From contig JAGOQX010000003.1 in NCBI GenBank assembly GCA_018063105.1, positions 1-59,730 on the forward strand: a stretch of 59,730 bases of DNA. The letters run 5' to 3'. Below the pieces are notes generated by a model that did not search any database, was not told the DNA's origin, and saw only the letters and a program-made list of their open reading frames with translations. Positions 8,033-42,567 of this stretch are shown here, one piece after another; the stretch's first letter is position 1; the number at the start of each line of letters is the position of its first letter. The stretch is from Patescibacteria group bacterium (GTDB lineage Bacteria; Patescibacteriota; Patescibacteriia; 2-12-FULL-60-25). The position numbers were made by a program, and so were the translations under genes.

Positions 8033-9364
8033 ATGATTGAGAACCAACAACAGCCTATAAAGCGAGCTCCGTGGCTTGCTGCCTGGGCACTCTCGACTAC
8101 TGCAGCTTTTATCATTGGGTTTGCAATTGCGCAACCGGGGGATACACTGGCAGCAGCTCGAAAACTTGTTCCGACCTCACCAAAGGTTATTGGAATGAAT
8201 AGTGCCGCTCCGGCGGATATTGTCACGCCGGTTAATTTTAAAGAATTTTGGGATTTGTGGCGTCAGATGAAAGAGCGCTATCATCAACAACCGGTTGATG
8301 ATGCAACGCTGTTTTATGGTGCAATGTCCGGGTTAGCATCCGCTGTCGGTGATCCATATACAACGTATTTCGAGCCAAAGAGTGCGCAAGAATTTTCCTC
8401 ATCGCTTCAGGGAAAGTTTGAGGGGATCGGAGCTGAAATTGGGATCAAGAACGATCAATTGCAGGTCATTGCTCCATTGCCAGAAACGCCAGCAGAAAAA
8501 GCGGGATTGCAACCTGGTGATTTGATTTTAACGATCGACAAACAGGATGCAACGGGAATGACCGTTGAGAAGGCGGTTTCACTCATTCGCGGAAAAGGAG
8601 GAACCGTGGTCAATTTACTCATTGGCAGAACCAAGGTAGAAAAGGATTCGTTTGGAAAGGATAAAAAAACATTCGTCTCATTGGAAAAGGCGATTACGCG
8701 AGAGACGATTCTGGTGAAGAGTGTTCGAACGAGCTATCTGCGCGACGGCATTGCCTTGATTGAAATTACACACTTCAATGAAGATACGGCAGATGGTTTT
8801 TCCGCAGCCGTGAAAGAGGTGCTTGCGAAAAATGCCAAAGGATTGATCGTTGATTTGAGAAATGACCCAGGAGGATATTTGGATCGTGCTACACAGGTCA
8901 CGAGTGAGTGGGTCGGCAATCAGGTCGTTGTCATGGAGCGTCGTCAGGGGAAGATCACGGACAGCTTCCGTGGCACTGGACCGGCGCGCTTGAAAAAGAT
9001 GCCAACCGTACTGTTGGTCAATCAGGGCTCTGCATCTGCTTCTGAAATTGTGGCCGGTGCATTGCAGGACTACGGGATGGCAAAGCTCGTGGGAATGAAG
9101 ACATTTGGAAAAGGATCAGTTCAGGATGTGACAGATTTTCCAGATAAGAGTTCCGTAAAAATTACGATTGCAGAATGGCTAACTCCAAAGGGTCGTTCCA
9201 TTGATAAGGTCGGCATTCAACCCGACATTCAGGTCGACCGAACAGAAGATGATTATCATGCCAACAGAGATCCACAACTCGACCGCGCCCTCGACATCCT
9301 CACCGGAACGTCGAGCACAGCCGCAGAAACGGTTTCATCCACGAAGAACGGGCTCAAAAAATAA
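8033..9364 (+). CDS. S41 carboxyl-terminal processing protease (CtpA/Prc type)
   Basis: 443 aa. An N-terminal membrane helix (about residues 14-34, LAAWALSTTAAFIIGFAIA) anchors the protein with its body outside. A PDZ domain covers about residues 125-215 (IGAEIGIKNDQL, AGLQPGDLILTIDK). The S41 peptidase domain has Ser335 in NQGSASASE as nucleophile and Lys360 in TFGKGSVQ as general base. Such enzymes trim secreted or membrane proteins from the C terminus. The 3' end overlaps the probable start of the Nudix gene by about 107 nt in another frame. The ATG at 8033 sits just after a TATTAT -10 box. Confidence 0.92.
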   Translation: MIENQQQPIKRAPWLAAWALSTTAAFIIGFAIAQPGDTLAAARKLVPTSPKVIGMNSAAPADIVTPVNFKEFWDLWRQMKERYHQQPVDDATLFYGAMSGLASAVGDPYTTYFEPKSAQEFSSSLQGKFEGIGAEIGIKNDQLQVIAPLPETPAEKAGLQPGDLILTIDKQDATGMTVEKAVSLIRGKGGTVVNLLIGRTKVEKDSFGKDKKTFVSLEKAITRETILVKSVRTSYLRDGIALIEITHFNEDTADGFSAAVKEVLAKNAKGLIVDLRNDPGGYLDRATQVTSEWVGNQVVVMERRQGKITDSFRGTGPARLKKMPTVLLVNQGSASASEIVAGALQDYGMAKLVGMKTFGKGSVQDVTDFPDKSSVKITIAEWLTPKGRSIDKVGIQPDIQVDRTEDDYHANRDPQLDRALDILTGTSSTAAETVSSTKNGLKK

Positions 9365-34967: not shown

Positions 34968-36524
34968 ATGAGCAAGCGAATCCTTCGGCTCTCGAGGGGC
35001 GGGGCCGTCAAGGCGTCGCTTCTCATGTTCGGCACGTCGATCGTTGTGTTCGGGTGCGGTACGTCTCCCGTCTTGGAATACGAGATCGGTGATACTGACA
35101 CGGCGCCTTGCACGGCGTTCTACTGCAGCACGACGGGGACCGGCGGCCACACGGGCGCAGCCGGCAGCGGCGGCATGGGTGGTCACGCTGGTAGCGGTGG
35201 GTCCACGACGTCGGTCGGCGGCTCGGGCGGTACGTCCACGGGGACGGGCGGTTCGGGCGGTAGCGCTGGCGCAACCCACGCGGGTGGCGCAGGCGGATTC
35301 GGCGGCAACACGACGACGAATACCGGCGGAAGCGCTGGTGCAACGAACGTCGGTGGCTCGGGTGGTTCCGGCGGAATGACGACGACGGGTACTGGCGGTC
35401 AGGGTGGCGCAACCACCACGACCACAGACGCCGGCGTCGGCGGTTCGGGCGGTGCTTCGACTACGACGACGGATGCGGGCATCCTGAACTCGTTCAGCTG
35501 CTCCGGTTGGACGCGTGATCCGCTGTTCGACGCTTTCAAGATCCCGGATCAGAACAACCAGCCGGCGGACGTTCAGCTCGTCGGTGGGATCTGGGGAACG
35601 AGCGGAGACGACTTCTACATCTCCGCCGCAACCTACGCCAAGGGCGTCGTCGCGCACTGGTACGGCGGAGCGTTTCATCTCGAGGCGCTGCCTAGCGATC
35701 CTCCGAAGGTTCGTGGTATCTGGGGTTCAGGCGCTGGCGACGTGTGGCTTGGCTCGGAGTCCGTCATGCAGGCGGTCCTGTATCACCGGGTGAACGGTAC
35801 CTGGACTGTGGAGGCTAACGCCCCCAACGCGATTTCCTTCGCAGACGTTTGGGGGAGCGATGCAAATCATGTGTTCCTCCTTGGTCAGGATGCGGGGTTC
35901 AGCAAGGTTTGGATGAAGTCCGGTGCGAACTGGATCGATACGAACCTTCCGAATCCGATGAAGGCGGGTGATCTTGCCTTCGCCGCGGTGCACATCTGGG
36001 GTACCGACGCTTCGCATGTTTTCGCAACTGGATATCGCATTGACAAGGCATCGAATGCGGTTGGCGGTGTTCTCTGGTTCTACAACGGTGTCACCTGGAA
36101 GATCGTCCAGGTGCCAGTCGAGGCGATGGAGCTGACTGGGGTTCATGGCACGTCTCCGCAGGACCTCTTCGTGACCGGCCACGGAGTTGTTGTTGGTGGC
36201 AACGCGGATTCTTATGTCTATCACGTGACCGATAACATGGCTACGTGGACGCCGTACACGAGGCCGAGTTTTGGGAGCTACGGACCAGTGCTCTCAATGA
36301 AGTTCGGCACGTTTCTTGCAGTTGGTACCCAGCCTCCCTCGATTGATGGAAGCTTGAGGGTCACGACTGTGGATCAAATCTCTCCGGCACAGTTTTATGC
36401 TTTGGATGGCAAGGCAGTTGGGCCCGTCGCTCTTTGGCCAGAATCTGGTTCCTCGAAGGTTCATCTGGTTCATATCTCGGGCGGAGTCACGATCGGTGGC
36501 CACTACATCAGTAACTGTAAGTAA
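34968..36524 (+). CDS. Gly-rich lipoprotein with WG repeats
   Basis: 518 aa. A signal peptide (basic start, hydrophobic AVKASLLMFGTSIVVF) ends in the lipobox VFGC with Cys30 as the lipidation site. Residues about 56-175 are a low-complexity Gly/Ser/Thr/Ala linker (TGGSGGSAG-type). The remainder holds at least five repeats of the form xGIWGTSGDDFYISA, with GIWGSGAGDVWLGS, DVWGSDANHVFLLG, HIWGTDASHVFATG and GVHGTSPQDLFVTG, suggesting a beta-propeller. The layout resembles lipoproteins of myxobacteria rather than CPR proteins. The 5' part is very GC-rich and the 3' half less so. It has its own promoter and terminator. Confidence 0.78.
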   Translation: MSKRILRLSRGGAVKASLLMFGTSIVVFGCGTSPVLEYEIGDTDTAPCTAFYCSTTGTGGHTGAAGSGGMGGHAGSGGSTTSVGGSGGTSTGTGGSGGSAGATHAGGAGGFGGNTTTNTGGSAGATNVGGSGGSGGMTTTGTGGQGGATTTTTDAGVGGSGGASTTTTDAGILNSFSCSGWTRDPLFDAFKIPDQNNQPADVQLVGGIWGTSGDDFYISAATYAKGVVAHWYGGAFHLEALPSDPPKVRGIWGSGAGDVWLGSESVMQAVLYHRVNGTWTVEANAPNAISFADVWGSDANHVFLLGQDAGFSKVWMKSGANWIDTNLPNPMKAGDLAFAAVHIWGTDASHVFATGYRIDKASNAVGGVLWFYNGVTWKIVQVPVEAMELTGVHGTSPQDLFVTGHGVVVGGNADSYVYHVTDNMATWTPYTRPSFGSYGPVLSMKFGTFLAVGTQPPSIDGSLRVTTVDQISPAQFYALDGKAVGPVALWPESGSSKVHLVHISGGVTIGGHYISNCK

Positions 36525-37698: not shown

Positions 37699-37735
37699 AA
37701 AAAAATCAGTTGGCAAAGTGTCAGCTGATTTTTTA
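37699..37735. terminator. Bidirectional terminator
   Basis: AAAAAATCAGTTGGCA and TGTCAGCTGATTTTTT form a hairpin with A-run and T-run on the two sides. It serves the surface-protein gene and overlaps the stop codon of the convergent kinase-like gene. Confidence 0.75.
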
Positions 37736-38275
37736 ATTCATTCGTTTGATGATATTTTTTGCAGAATTCTTGGCCGATACCGTCGTCGTATCAATCGTCA
37801 AACTTTCTGCAAATGAAATTGGACGTTCGAGGTTGTATGTGTGAATAAGTTTTTTCAAGACGGAAGGCTTTGAAAGTTTGTGAAAATGTTTTCGGCTTTC
37901 GCTGGTGACGCGTTGCAGCAAAACGGATTCATCGCATGCCAGGTGAATGAATGTCGTTTTTCCACCATGTTGTTTTACGCGCTGTGAGATTGTTTTGAGA
38001 ATGGCTTCATCGTGTTTGCCCTCCTTTGTTTCCAATCCAAATGCAAATGTCATGATTAGTCCAGGGGTGCCGGCCTTGAGCGCGGCATCGATCGCCATGG
38101 TCCGCAACATTGTCGCGAATTCAACGTATTCATCCGTGCCGAATGCGAACAGAGCATTTCCAAAATCCGCAATCAAATGATTATGCAGAAGGGGAAAACC
38201 GGTTTTTTTCGAAAGCTCCTTGGCGATCGTCAATTTTCCACTCGCCGGTGGACCGTAGAGGATGATGAGATGCAT
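37733..38275 (-). CDS. P-loop kinase-like ATPase (AAA_33/shikimate kinase type)
   Basis: 180 aa from the ATG at 38275; an in-frame ATG at 38308 would add 11 residues and run into the divergent promoter. Walker A is LYGPPASGKLTIAKEL, followed by LLHNHLIADFG, a Walker B-like strand GLIMTFAFGLE, and HLACDESVLLQRVTSESRKH with a lid of Arg/Lys residues. Small kinases of this type phosphorylate nucleosides, sugars or antibiotics. The substrate is unknown. It diverges from the peptide cassette, with only a short promoter region between. Confidence 0.75.
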   Translation of the reverse strand: MHLIILYGPPASGKLTIAKELSKKTGFPLLHNHLIADFGNALFAFGTDEYVEFATMLRTMAIDAALKAGTPGLIMTFAFGLETKEGKHDEAILKTISQRVKQHGGKTTFIHLACDESVLLQRVTSESRKHFHKLSKPSVLKKLIHTYNLERPISFAESLTIDTTTVSAKNSAKNIIKRMN

Positions 38276-38286
38276 GGTATTTAGGC

Positions 38287-38316
38287 TTGACAGCTCGTTC
38301 ATGACCATGGTAATAC
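38287..38316 (+). promoter_or_regulatory. Promoter of the peptide cassette
   Basis: TTGACA (38287-38292), 18-bp spacer, TAATAC (38311-38316), with an extended TG at 38308-38309. This is one of the strongest-looking promoters in the window. The predicted start falls at about 38323, at the left arm of the inverted repeat. Confidence 0.68.
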
Positions 38317-38321
38317 ATTTT

Positions 38322-38341
38322 CAGTGCTAATCAAAGCACTG
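38322..38341 (+). promoter_or_regulatory. Inverted repeat at the transcription start of the peptide cassette
   Basis: CAGTGCT, six bases, AGCACTG: a perfect 7-bp inverted repeat. It lies just after the -10 box and could be a repressor operator or a 5' hairpin protecting the mRNA. The Shine-Dalgarno sequence GGAGG (38346-38350) follows 4 nt later. Confidence 0.6.
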
Positions 38342-38357
38342 ATACGGAGGCTGTCTC

Positions 38358-38558
38358 ATGAACGGGAAGAACGAAGGCAACAAGGGCCAGAACAGGACGG
38401 CGCGCAGCAACGTCGTGGTGCTCTGCGGCGTCGCAGGCTGTTGCCCGGAGATCGAGAAGATGCCGGACGGCACCTTCGAGATCCGAGACGACGACGACGG
38501 GAAGGTCAAGCTCACCGCGGACCAGTACCGCGCGCTCCAGGACGCGAAGTTCGCCTAG
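38358..38558 (+). CDS. Putative RiPP precursor peptide
   Basis: 66 aa. The N-terminal 18 residues are charged and Asn/Gly/Lys-rich (NGKNEGNKGQNRTARSN). Then comes VVVLCGVAGCCPEIEKMPDG with Cys23, Cys28 and Cys29, the acidic TFEIRDDDDGKVKL and a helical end TADQYRALQDAKFA. It has GGAGG at 38346-38350, seven bases before the ATG, a strong promoter and a stable hairpin after it, all fitting a highly expressed peptide feeding the radical SAM gene 90 nt downstream. Only 4 of 66 codons end in A or T, unlike every other gene of the cassette. It may be a substrate for cross-linking at Cys or Asp. No family recognised. Confidence 0.78.
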   Translation: MNGKNEGNKGQNRTARSNVVVLCGVAGCCPEIEKMPDGTFEIRDDDDGKVKLTADQYRALQDAKFA

Positions 38559-38592
38559 TAGACCGCGCGAACGACGCACATCTCCCTCACAC

Positions 38593-38622
38593 GGGGCCCC
38601 ATCTCGAACGAGGTGGGGCCCC
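38593..38622 (+). terminator. Attenuator or processing hairpin between peptide and radical SAM genes
   Basis: GGGGCCCCATCTC, loop GAAC, GAGGTGGGGCCCC: a 13-bp stem with one wobble. Only a weak TTCTC run follows, so it is more likely partial termination or mRNA stabilisation than a full stop. Such a hairpin would leave the peptide expressed above the enzyme genes. Confidence 0.65.
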
Positions 38623-38648
38623 TTCTCATAGAGAAAGGTAGTTGAACC

Positions 38649-39974
38649 ATGCTTCTCTCGAGATACTTGAAGACGCGTGAACGAGATGGTTGGGTTGTTG
38701 CATTTCATCAGCTTCATCCAGCTCCAGTGTATTGCACTATTGAAGATTGGAAGAAGTTTCTTTCGGACATGTCGCCTCTGAATCCGCTCTTCGACAAATT
38801 GCAGAAATCTCGACTCCTGGTTTCTTCGTCGAAAGAGGATGATTTAGAGTTTGAGTCTGTGAAAAACTCACTTATGGGCAAGCTTTCAGAGCCGAAGATC
38901 CTGTATCTGTTGCTTGCGCAGGGTTGCAATTTCAATTGCTCCTATTGCCCAGTGCCGGGGCTTGCAAAGAAATACGGCGAGGACTTGTTGTCTTCGACGG
39001 ATGCCGACGCTGGACTAGAGCTTTGGTCGCGACATCTTGCTGATGATGAGCAGGGCGAGAGTTACGTTATCTTCTATGGTGGTGAGCCTTTGTTGAATAA
39101 GCCAACATTCTATTCCTCGCTATCGTCGATTTCGAAGCTAAGATCAGAGAAGCGTCTTCCCGTTAAGGGTTTGAATCTAATGCTCGCAACGAATGGAACG
39201 TTGATCGACGAGGGGATTGTCGAGGCGTGTATCGCGAATGACGTGTTGATCTCTGTCGGCCTCGATGGTCCGCGTCAAGCGAACGATCGGTTCCGTGTAT
39301 ATAGCAATGGTCATGGAACGTATGATGATATCTTGTCGATGCTTCGGCATCTGCAAGATCGTGGTGTCCGCTTGGCTATTTCTGCAACGATTACCCCATA
39401 TACGGTCGTTGAGTTCAAAGAATTTAGTGAGATTCTGCGATCAATGGGGTTGATGAATGTTGGATTCAATTTCCTGAAGGGGGAAACGCTTGTGAGAATT
39501 GCACCATGGATTGATCGTACAGAATTTGTTCGACAATCGGTTCAGGCCGTTCTTGATTGGAATCGTACGCTGCAACGCCAGGGACGTGAATATCAAGTAG
39601 GAAAAAAGGTTATGGCATTCCGTTCTCAGGACTTTTTTCCGGTTGATTGTACTTGTTACGGCAACCAACTTGTCGTTCGTCCAAATGGGTTGTTGTCAAA
39701 CTGTCCGTTCTCAGGGGGTGATCTTGGTCACGTGCAATCTGTTAATGCGGATTTTCGGATCGCAAAAACAGAGGTGGTTCAGCAGTGGCGCTGTCGATTG
39801 CCGCTCCTTCATTCCGCGTTTGATGATCTCGACGCTATGGCGTTGTGCGGACCGGGTTGCGCATGGGGTGCAATGGATTCTGGTAACTTGATGGCGGTTG
39901 ATCAAGAACTCACTGCATTTTCCCAGGAGATTTTCGATGATCTCATCTGGTCGGGACTTGAACATGGAGAGTAG
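38649..39974 (+). CDS. Radical SAM/SPASM peptide maturase
   Basis: 441 aa. The SAM-cluster motif CX3CX2C is at Cys93, Cys97 and Cys100 (AQGCNFNCSYCPV), with the GGEP motif at 144-147 and the TIM-barrel strand NLMLATNGTLIDEG near 176-190. A SPASM-like C-terminal domain has Cys334, Cys336, Cys352, Cys382, Cys400 and Cys404, enough for one or two auxiliary clusters. Enzymes of this type install C-C, C-S or C-O cross-links on peptides. The first 85 residues have no barrel features and may bind the peptide. A purine-rich AAAGGTAG precedes the ATG. Its end overlaps the phosphorylase gene by 11 nt. Confidence 0.9.
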   Translation: MLLSRYLKTRERDGWVVAFHQLHPAPVYCTIEDWKKFLSDMSPLNPLFDKLQKSRLLVSSSKEDDLEFESVKNSLMGKLSEPKILYLLLAQGCNFNCSYCPVPGLAKKYGEDLLSSTDADAGLELWSRHLADDEQGESYVIFYGGEPLLNKPTFYSSLSSISKLRSEKRLPVKGLNLMLATNGTLIDEGIVEACIANDVLISVGLDGPRQANDRFRVYSNGHGTYDDILSMLRHLQDRGVRLAISATITPYTVVEFKEFSEILRSMGLMNVGFNFLKGETLVRIAPWIDRTEFVRQSVQAVLDWNRTLQRQGREYQVGKKVMAFRSQDFFPVDCTCYGNQLVVRPNGLLSNCPFSGGDLGHVQSVNADFRIAKTEVVQQWRCRLPLLHSAFDDLDAMALCGPGCAWGAMDSGNLMAVDQELTAFSQEIFDDLIWSGLEHGE

Positions 39975-40782
39975 ACGTTCGATTGGTATTATCGGAGGAA
40001 GTGGATTTGAACAGTATCCGGAACTTCTAGTTGAAAGGCGCGTCGTCGTATCAACACCGTATGGTTTTCCTTCCGATGAGCTTCTTATCGGAAAAGTAGG
40101 TGATACGGATGTGGTTTTTCTTCCGCGACACGGTGCTGACCATCGGATCGCACCACATCGGATACCATACAAGGCGAATCTGGCTGCAATGAAATCGTTT
40201 GGTGTGTCTACGGTGCTTTCGACTTGTATTGTAGGAAGTCTGAAGAAAACGATAGAGCCTGGTTTTTTCGTCGTTCCTGACCAATTTGTGAATTTCACAT
40301 CTGGACGGGATGCTGATTCCGTCGAATCCGATGGCTCGTTTGTCCATTTGCCGATGGCGCTGCCGTATTGTCAGGCGCTTCGCATTGAGATGATCCGCGC
40401 GCTTCAACGAGCCGTCGGCTCGAAATTTCAAGGTGATGGAACGGTTGTCGTGATTCAGGGGCCACGCTTCTCTACGACTGCGGAAAGTAAATTCTTTATT
40501 AGAAACGAATGGGATATCGTGAACATGACTCAGTATCCAGAGTGTCTGTTCGCGAGAGAGCTTGGTATGTGCTATGCGACGCTCGCTTCCGTGACCGACT
40601 GGGACGTCGGAGTTGGCGAATCGTTAAGCATGAAACCGGAAACGATGGATCAGGTGCTGGACATCTTTCGAAAGAATACGCAAGTTACTCGGCAGGTCAT
40701 CGGTGATGTCCTAAGCCAGCTATCTGCGTTCACCTGTGGTTGTGCGAATGCTGTTGTTACGGAATACTACAAGCGTCGCTAA
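39964..40782 (+). CDS. MTA/purine nucleoside phosphorylase family enzyme
   Basis: 272 aa from the ATG at 39964 inside the end of the radical SAM gene. The family pattern is complete: IGIIGGSGFEQYPEL, VFLPRHGADHRIAPHRIPYK, GSLKKTIEPGFFVVPDQFVN, VVIQGPRFSTTAESKFF and VNMTQYPECLFARELGMCYA, as in S-methyl-5'-thioadenosine phosphorylase. It cleaves MTA, and members also cleave 5'-deoxyadenosine, the by-product of radical SAM chemistry. A C-terminal CGC (FTCGCANAV) resembles the CXC of some archaeal members. Overlap with the maturase makes co-translation likely. It may remove product inhibition for that enzyme; this is inference. Confidence 0.88.
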   Translation: MESRRSIGIIGGSGFEQYPELLVERRVVVSTPYGFPSDELLIGKVGDTDVVFLPRHGADHRIAPHRIPYKANLAAMKSFGVSTVLSTCIVGSLKKTIEPGFFVVPDQFVNFTSGRDADSVESDGSFVHLPMALPYCQALRIEMIRALQRAVGSKFQGDGTVVVIQGPRFSTTAESKFFIRNEWDIVNMTQYPECLFARELGMCYATLASVTDWDVGVGESLSMKPETMDQVLDIFRKNTQVTRQVIGDVLSQLSAFTCGCANAVVTEYYKRR

Positions 40783-40806
40783 CGGCGGACAAACGGAAAG
40801 GGAGCT

Positions 40807-42489
40807 ATGATACAGGTACAAGGACTCGAAAAAAGATTCGGTACGGCGCCCGTTTTATCTGGTGTGGATTTTGTGCTTGGCGATAGCCAACACGGGGTTC
40901 TTGTTGGACAGAATGGGTCTGGTAAATCGACGATCCTGAAAATCCTCGCGCGATTGATTGAGCCTGATGCGGGATCATTTGATTTCGGTCCAAATGCGCG
41001 TGTTGGATACCTCCCGCAAGACACTAGTGCTATCGGTGAGGCCTCGATTATTGAGTACTTGCGTGGTGAGACACGACTCGCTTTTGCAGAGAAGGAGATG
41101 ACGGAATTAGCGGATCATCTTGATGAGCCGAGTGTGCGATTACGGTATGAACATGCATTTGGGTTGTTCGAGAGAATGCATGGTTATGAATTCGATACGC
41201 ATGCTAGGATGATGCTTTCCGGCTTTGGAATGGAGCGGATTCCGTTGGAGATGCCTATTTCTGAGCTCTCGAGCGGTCAAAAGAGCAAAATCGCATTAAT
41301 CGCGATTCTTATGCGTGAAGATGATGTGCTGTTGTTGGATGAGCCGACGAACAATCTCGACCTTTCAGCGCTGGCTTGGCTCGAGGCCTACTTGCGTAAG
41401 TCACGAGCGACGATTCTCGTCGTCTCGCATGATCGTCGATTCGTCGATCGTATTGCAGATAAGATTATCGAACTTGATTGGATGACGCATACCGTTGCTA
41501 CGACAAGCGGAACGTATACAGATTACTTGGCTGCAAAGTCAAAGCAGCGAATTCGTCAGCTTCAGGAATTCAATGCTCAGCAAGAGGAGATTGGGCGCCT
41601 TGAAGATCGTGCATTGCAAATGAAGAAACGATCAACTGAAGGTGCAAAATGGAAAGGAACGGATAATGATAAATTTTTGCGAGGATTTAAGAGAGATCGT
41701 GCAGGGAAGTCTGCAAAAGGCGCTAAGACAATTGAGAAGCGTATTCAACAAATGGATGTTGTTGAAAAGCCTTTTGAGCGTGTTCCGCTTGAGGTTGATA
41801 TAGGCGAAGATCTCGGCGAAGGAAATCGTGACATCGTCTTGACTGATGTACGGGCCGGGTATTCAGACGAATTCGTGATTGGTCCGATTTCGTTGTACAT
41901 ACCTTTCGGTACTCGGGTCGGTATTCTTGGATTGAACGGTTCTGGTAAATCTACGCTTCTGAAGACGGTATCAGGATATCTCAAGCCTCTCACAGGAACG
42001 GTACAAATCGGAAGTGGTGTGCGTATGGGCGATATGTTGCAAGAGCACGATTCTTTGCCTCGGGACATGACTCCGATTCAGTACCTCGTAGATCGTTCAC
42101 GCATTGATACGACGCAAAGCTTTGCGCTTCTTGCGCGATATGGTGTTTCAGCTGAACAGGCGAGAGAACCGATTGAAGTCCTCAGTCCTGGAATGCGGGC
42201 GCGAATCCTTATCGGATTGTTTTCTGCGCTGAAAAAAAATGTATTACTTTTAGATGAGCCGACGAATCATCTAGACCTTGAAGCAATGGATGCGCTGGAA
42301 GAGGCGATCATTGGATATCATGGGACGATGCTCGTCGTTTCTCACGATAGATTCTTCATCGAGAAGTTGAAACTCGATGAGCTCTATCAGCTGAATAATA
42401 GCCATCTTGAAAAGATCGAGAATCTCGAGGCGTATATTCGACACTCAGAAAATAAGGCCAAGCAACTCATGCGTGTACTGAAGAAATAG
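40807..42489 (+). CDS. ABC-F family ATPase
   Basis: 560 aa with two ATPase domains and no membrane segment. The first has GQNGSGKSTILK, signature ELSSGQKSKIAL and VLLLDEPTNNLDL; the second has GLNGSGKSTLLK, signature VLSPGMRARILI and VLLLDEPTNHLDL. The linker between (about residues 235-340) is basic, with many Lys and Arg. ABC-F proteins act on the ribosome; some protect it from antibiotics, others are housekeeping factors. Position as the last gene of the cassette suggests protection from the product. Its start is preceded by the purine-rich AAAGGGAG at 40797-40804. Confidence 0.9.
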   Translation: MIQVQGLEKRFGTAPVLSGVDFVLGDSQHGVLVGQNGSGKSTILKILARLIEPDAGSFDFGPNARVGYLPQDTSAIGEASIIEYLRGETRLAFAEKEMTELADHLDEPSVRLRYEHAFGLFERMHGYEFDTHARMMLSGFGMERIPLEMPISELSSGQKSKIALIAILMREDDVLLLDEPTNNLDLSALAWLEAYLRKSRATILVVSHDRRFVDRIADKIIELDWMTHTVATTSGTYTDYLAAKSKQRIRQLQEFNAQQEEIGRLEDRALQMKKRSTEGAKWKGTDNDKFLRGFKRDRAGKSAKGAKTIEKRIQQMDVVEKPFERVPLEVDIGEDLGEGNRDIVLTDVRAGYSDEFVIGPISLYIPFGTRVGILGLNGSGKSTLLKTVSGYLKPLTGTVQIGSGVRMGDMLQEHDSLPRDMTPIQYLVDRSRIDTTQSFALLARYGVSAEQAREPIEVLSPGMRARILIGLFSALKKNVLLLDEPTNHLDLEAMDALEEAIIGYHGTMLVVSHDRFFIEKLKLDELYQLNNSHLEKIENLEAYIRHSENKAKQLMRVLKK

Positions 42490-42519
42490 CCGGAATCGTT
42501 CATTTGTAACGTTAACAAC

Positions 42520-42567
42520 CCCGTAAAACATAGCATAATGTGCGCTTGTTTTACGGGGCTTTTTTTC
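42520..42567 (+). terminator. Terminator of the peptide cassette
   Basis: CCCCGTAAAACA (42520-42531) and TGTTTTACGGGG (42548-42559) form a perfect 12-bp stem around a 16-nt loop, followed by C and seven T residues. It is strong on the plus strand. It marks the right edge of the island. Confidence 0.88.

Follow-up and report, generated by a model that had tools for sequence, protein, structure and literature searches.

A conserved four-gene cassette in Patescibacteria as a candidate radical SAM peptide-modification system

Introduction

Radical S-adenosylmethionine (SAM) enzymes are found beside small peptides or proteins in several described systems, and here we compare the closest of these with a four-gene cassette in a 59,730-nt stretch of DNA (contig C47) from a patescibacterial genome of 0.96 Mb in 56 contigs. 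The whole stretch is referred to as the window, and all coordinates are positions in it. On its plus strand lie, in this order, genes for a small peptide, a radical SAM maturase, a 5'-methylthioadenosine (MTA) phosphorylase, and an ABC-F ATPase. We read them as a self-contained cassette for a ribosomally synthesized and posttranslationally modified peptide (RiPP), inherited or transferred as a unit, and give this reading a probability of roughly 0.6.

The best family match of the window maturase is the FibroRumin maturase (TIGR04136) with its relatives in Patescibacteria. These enzymes share with it an N-terminal domain, a radical SAM domain, and a C-terminal cluster domain, and likewise stand behind a small cysteine peptide, but the cassette maturase has lost several SPASM cysteines, its peptide is unrelated in sequence, and a phosphorylase and an ABC-F protein have been added. 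The ranthipeptide/SCIFF maturases (PapB and CteB), whose substrates are also cysteine peptides, form the second-best family match and have the closest solved fold; however, neither the six-Cys nor the CX3D repeats known from those classes occur in the window peptide. QhpD, which acts on the small subunit of quinohemoprotein amine dehydrogenase, offers an example of radical SAM cross-linking of a folded small protein, yet the cassette contains no amine dehydrogenase genes and its maturase has a low score for that family.

The two other enzymes also have described counterparts. In Synechococcus elongatus, cleavage of 5'-deoxyadenosine, an inhibitor of radical SAM enzymes, requires the phosphorylase MtnP (PMC8102628). 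In that organism, an MtnP-type phosphorylase removes a radical SAM by-product without being tied to one maturase, whereas the phosphorylase gene of the cassette overlaps or abuts the maturase gene. Self-protection by ABC-F proteins encoded beside biosynthetic genes is known from the TlrC/CarA/OleB/SrmB producers, which make macrolides; the cassette ABC-F matches their model over its full length but with only 262.7 bits, where the cut-off is 800.

A preliminary description of this DNA had called RiPP systems little described in bacteria of the candidate phyla radiation (CPR), which needs qualifying, since graspetide clusters from CPR bacteria have been published (PMC8939145). These are RiPP clusters of the same radiation but rely on ATP-grasp ligase chemistry rather than on a radical SAM enzyme. 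In the titles and opening parts of abstracts of open-licence papers on radical SAM enzymes and RiPPs with an MTA phosphorylase, an ABC-F protein, or a nucleosidase, no gene set of the present kind was found.

Results and Discussion

The Cassette Is Conserved in Diverged Genomes

The cassette in the window comprises the following features:

38288 to 38293, plus strand: TTGACA hexamer in the sequence upstream of the peptide gene, a possible -35 element
38358 to 38558, plus strand: gene for a precursor-like peptide of 66 aa, with an ATG start and a GGAGG Shine-Dalgarno sequence upstream
38596 to 38631, plus strand: GC-rich stem-loop between the peptide and maturase genes, its position kept in all ten loci
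38649 to 39974, plus strand: gene for the radical SAM peptide maturase, 441 aa (family scans, alignment, and predicted structure)
39964 to 40782, plus strand: gene for the MTA/5'-deoxyadenosine phosphorylase (MtnP-like), 272 aa, sharing 11 nt with the maturase gene
40807 to 42489, plus strand: gene for the ABC-F ATPase, 560 aa (family scan and linker motif DNDKFLRGFKRDR)
42517 to 42567, plus strand: terminator-like hairpin CCCCGTAAAACA...TGTTTTACGGGG with a T run in the sequence at the operon end

Pfam and NCBIfam scans agreed on the families of all three enzymes. The preliminary description had placed these four genes on one strand, and the open reading frames, the sequence, and, for the enzymes, the family scans bear this out; its Shine-Dalgarno sequence, the overlap of the phosphorylase and maturase genes, the strong hairpin 3' of the peptide gene, and the single closing terminator, with a 12-bp stem (~42517-42567) after the ABC-F gene, were likewise recovered. 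Its strong promoter stands in part: the TTGACA hexamer at 38288 is perfect, but no good -10 partner lies at the usual spacing and the site is absent from the list of a consensus promoter scan.

Loci were gathered by whole-genome searches and neighborhood comparison, with a genome-collection scan represented by the matches listed; outside Patescibacteria, orthologues are possible. The cassette order was found in at least eight genomes besides the window, in diverged loci whose maturases share 37 to 50% identity with that of the window. The full order of peptide, maturase, phosphorylase, and ABC-F occurs in three genomes of the window's family (G016, G020, and G012), in two of other families of the same class (G377 and G175), and, among the matches listed, in L027 and L026 (Candidatus Zambryskibacteria record), while G006 shows the same order without the ABC-F gene. 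A 2OG-Fe(II) oxygenase-like gene (8500-9297, minus strand) stands between the phosphorylase and ABC-F genes in L026, which shows that direct adjacency of ABC-F is not universal. It had been proposed that a small peptide with a CCP...D core might recur beside the maturase with its neighbors conserved; such a peptide is present in all nine loci, as is the phosphorylase, and ABC-F in eight, so that 8/9 loci carry all four genes. A stable stem-loop separates the peptide and maturase genes in all nine and in a tenth, more distant locus (G425, below), with a T run behind most. A hairpin at such a position is usually read as a partial terminator that allows much peptide and little enzyme.

A search with the peptide profile in 381 genomes of the class matched exactly the seven with an orthologous maturase (score better than 1e-120) and none of the other 374. 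The distribution is patchy (5/41 genomes in the window's family, 1/36 in the order of G377), and the gene trees of the cassette are broadly congruent, with gene distances that correlate between maturase and phosphorylase (r = 0.87), maturase and ABC-F (r = 0.87), and maturase and peptide (r = 0.51; Mantel p ≤ 0.014 throughout). Together, the patchy distribution and the congruent trees suggest that the cassette has been transferred, or repeatedly lost, as a unit. No plasmid match for it was found. The cassette is thus real and conserved and, as far as can be searched, unnamed.

The Peptide Family

Alignment of the nine orthologues showed invariant L22, C23, G24, C28, C29, P30, D45, V50, L52, and Q56. 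Two motifs of the window peptide are conserved, CGVxGCCP and DDxGGxVxLTxxQxxxL, the family pattern reading CGVxGCCP...DDxGGxVxLTxxQWxxL. In pairwise comparisons of the core, the proportion of synonymous differences (pS) was 0.57 to 0.78 and that of nonsynonymous differences (pN) 0.16 to 0.52, the latter inflated for the pair L020/L146, which is aligned with an offset of one residue. Since the synonymous side is near saturation and pN is lower, the peptide is conserved at the protein level. A chance reading frame is ruled out by the homologues, the synonymous excess, and the perfect co-occurrence with the maturase.

The family gave nothing significant in Pfam, NCBIfam, PHROGs, or the sequences and folds of the PDB, in keeping with the earlier statement that the gene set was not recognized from any described RiPP class: no known peptide family was matched in the libraries searched. 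A possible resemblance to DUF397 received no support from the Pfam scan. Viral origin was also rejected: the single viral match (L160) reached E = 0.12 when the full profile was used and belongs to no gene that could plausibly be homologous; maturase matches in viral contigs were short and weak. In a model built from ten sequences, residues 31 to 60 are predicted to form three strands and a helix with a predicted local distance difference test (pLDDT) score of ~90, and no solved structure resembled this fold at E below 0.1.

The peptide gene has an unusual composition, with a third-position GC content of 0.94 against 0.48 in the neighboring cassette genes of the window (0.49 in dnaK, also in the window). 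The excess is also found in L017 to L020, L026, L145, and L146, and the values are nearly equal in L027. That the high GC content marks a recent acquisition of the peptide gene by itself was rejected, as the excess, though very small in one locus, recurs in the others; its recurrence makes it a property of the peptide gene.

The Maturase

The maturase matched the radical SAM core (PF04055) with 59.6 bits against a cut-off of 29.5, and the CxxxCxxC cysteines C93, C97, and C100 are invariant in 18 sequences. All nine cassette maturases keep four auxiliary-cluster cysteines, C334, C336, C352, and C404; compared with sister enzymes, the cassette clade has kept C334, C352, and C404, gained C336, and lost a CxxC pair and the last cysteine. 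The earlier label of SPASM thus needs narrowing: the four auxiliary-cluster cysteines are there, but the Pfam SPASM model is unmatched, the sister enzymes have more cysteines, and the full SPASM set for two auxiliary clusters is lacking. The cysteine pattern points instead to a single auxiliary cluster that has four cysteines as its ligands.

AlphaFold2 modeled the enzyme from the 18-sequence alignment with a pLDDT of 89.5. Its N terminus, predicted at pLDDT above 90, consists of strands (residues 7-12, 15-20, and 27-30) followed by helices (31-39, 46-53, and 61-78). This order of elements fits a PqqD-like domain, which is predicted at residues 7 to 78; no family model for such a domain matched. 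Foldseek placed CteB (5why and 5wgg) first, then TigE and a sulfatase maturase, and the sequence profile agreed. All family scores remained below their cut-offs (TIGR04136, 122.7/400; PapB NF047865, 103.9/340; QhpD, 80.5/453). By likeness to PapB and CteB, thioether chemistry would be the obvious guess.

The sister maturases, with 26 to 29% identity, are also encoded behind small Cys-rich peptides. Within the class, FibroRumin-like maturases follow small Cys-tailed peptides at L021 (G067), L022 (G077), L023 (G036), and L150 (G383), and in three of these four peptides the Cys-rich tail contains CYTSCTRC. Patescibacteria apparently have in these loci a second family of peptides linked to radical SAM enzymes.

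The Phosphorylase and the ABC-F Protein

The phosphorylase matched PF01048 above the cut-off (119.7 bits) and stayed below the NCBIfam equivalog cut-offs (TIGR01694, 243.9 vs. 274.85; PRK07823, 268.2 vs. 306). When the cassette enzymes were compared with solved MTA phosphorylases, all nine carried the MtnP motifs RHG, TC..GSL, QGPRF, and NMTQYPE, and eight the TDxD motif, which reads TDYA in L020 with loss of the second Asp. Residues of the MtnP motifs bind phosphate and base. A gene of the purine nucleoside phosphorylase (PNP) family is present in only 10/39 sampled relatives, including all five cassette genomes, and in three of these five hosts within the family the cassette phosphorylase is the sole one. 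Housekeeping methionine salvage is disfavored as the reason for its presence, because most related genomes lack such a gene. The by-product removal put forward in the preliminary description is well supported by the MtnP motifs, the lack of any other PNP-family gene in 3/5 hosts, and the published activity of MtnP (PMC8102628), from which we infer 5'-deoxyadenosine as the substrate cleared in vivo.

The ABC-F protein passed the cut-off of the ribosomal protection-like ABC-F model (NF000355, 390.4 bits vs. 380). Its inter-domain linker, the part that in ABC-F proteins reaches into the ribosome, carries the motif DNDKFLRGFKRDR without change in 8/8 sequences. Among 39 relatives, close homologues occur in cassette genomes only, G006 having none, and the nearest solved ABC-F proteins are E. 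coli YheS and YbiT. A role in self-protection is plausible, although the otherwise complete cassette of G006 has no such gene.

A Tenth Locus in Another Class

A phylum sample of 380 genomes yielded one further peptide, in G425 of a different class. This 60-aa homologue of the window peptide (CHIDQNCCPEV...ITDDDGGRVEL...W) is immediately preceded on its 5' side by an ABC-F gene (33% identity); after it come a perfect hairpin and the gene for a radical SAM protein of another kind. The nearest family of the latter is the geopeptide maturase (TIGR04280), here likewise beside a homologous peptide, but at 165.7 bits it falls short of the cut-off of 400 and is not of the window's maturase type. The arrangement of this one locus suggests that the peptide, ABC-F, and some radical SAM enzyme may form the core, with the phosphorylase added in the window-type cassette.

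Proposed Function and Alternatives

The RiPP reading draws directly on the gene set, its conservation, the co-occurrence and congruent trees, the predicted folds, and the intact catalytic motifs. From these we infer how the parts might work together. With a good ribosome site and a hairpin behind its gene, the peptide would be produced in excess of the enzymes and bound by the maturase through the fused PqqD-like domain. After reductive cleavage of SAM, the maturase would cross-link the conserved CGVxGCCP region, most likely by thioether bonds, whose partners may be residues close to the conserved Asp in the small folded domain. With every turnover, 5'-deoxyadenosine, an inhibitor of radical SAM enzymes, would be left for the co-encoded phosphorylase to remove. 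With less certainty, ABC-F would act on the ribosome, most likely shielding it from the mature product or from a rival's version.

Several points weigh against this reading. The unit contains no transporter or peptidase gene, which leaves export and maturation unexplained, and we know of no modified product. A phosphorylase is missing from the distant G425 locus and an ABC-F gene from the otherwise complete cassette of G006. Furthermore, the small folded domain predicted for the peptide would be unusual in a RiPP core. The confidence of that prediction adds weight to a serious alternative. Like QhpC, the substrate of QhpD, the peptide would be a small protein with a structural or redox role, in which a cross-link made by the radical SAM enzyme stabilizes an intracellular fold, and no natural product would be secreted. 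The compact fold of residues 31 to 60, conservation of both the Cys motif and the C-terminal domain, the lack of export genes, and the match of the maturase to the QhpD model all agree with this; yet no gene for a partner enzyme or subunit is conserved in the unit, the patchy distribution fits a dispensable trait, and the linkage to ABC-F is left unaccounted for. We therefore regard such a protein as unlikely, though worth keeping in view.

A similarly low probability attaches to a different role for ABC-F, compatible with a RiPP, as a translation helper that keeps ribosomes from stalling at the acidic and Cys-Cys-Pro stretches in the very short reading frame of the peptide. All peptides carry a conserved pair of acidic residues or a near-pair, YheS and YbiT are the nearest solved proteins, and there is precedent in E. 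coli EttA, which relieves ribosome pausing at acidic residues early in the chain, frequently where a proline lies upstream, the first 30 residues being critical (PMC11282234). In the window, however, the pair is found around residue 45, beyond that range, G006 has the peptide without a cassette-type ABC-F, and NCBIfam groups the protein with ribosomal protection-like ABC-Fs. That the four genes are merely neighbors, the peptide having a role of its own, the radical SAM enzyme acting on something else, the phosphorylase serving methionine salvage, and ABC-F conferring resistance, would suit the varying accessory genes and the lack of a known biochemical link. This is strongly disfavored and highly improbable, given an order kept in nine diverged loci, the congruent trees and perfect peptide/maturase co-occurrence, and a phosphorylase of a family (MtnP/PNP) that most related genomes lack.

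A RiPP system remains the best reading; to speak of a proven antibiotic or signaling system would not be justified. More tentatively, and with the odds somewhat against it, the cassette may represent a new RiPP class of Patescibacteria, in which a cross-linked folded mini-protein acts on ribosomes and is accompanied by its own 5'-deoxyadenosine phosphorylase and ABC-F immunity, the whole having moved as a unit and been assembled at least twice around one peptide family with different maturases. If the RiPP reading is right, ultra-small bacteria with genomes of ~1 Mb retain a unit devoted to peptide modification, which is relevant to how such cells affect hosts or rivals, and ABC-F would point to the ribosome as the target. 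It would also mean an operon-level tie between a radical SAM peptide maturase and its own 5'-deoxyadenosine-clearing enzyme, and peptide, maturase, and by-product enzyme would make a ready-made set for in vitro work.

Neighboring Genes and Other Loci

Kinase-like or nucleotidyltransferase-like genes of changing identity flank the cassette in most loci:

window 37733 to 38275, minus strand: divergent P-loop kinase-like gene (mechanical start 38308, likely start 38275)
L018, 8233 to 8784
L146, 2819 to 3415
L147, 2760 to 3320
L145, 2760 to 3422
L026, 11202 to 11840
L017, 7920 to 8786
L020, 5244 to 6008

Homologues of the window's kinase-like gene flank the cassette in two of the eight other loci, making it an optional neighbor. 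About 6 kb from the cassette of G006, the one cassette genome without ABC-F, L162 (3890-6154) encodes a 754-aa fusion of a SagB-type dehydrogenase and YcaO, a thiazole/oxazole-type peptide maturase. In G245, L163 (4901-7193) has a 96-aa protein, PqqD-like by eye, between two radical SAM genes, on a contig where a maturase of 31% identity, a kinase, and a fragment of an ABC-F gene also lie. Finally, the window contains at 34968 to 36524 a foreign-looking, lipoprotein-like gene of 518 aa with Gly/Ser/Thr repeats and a GC content of 0.61 against 0.48 for the contig.

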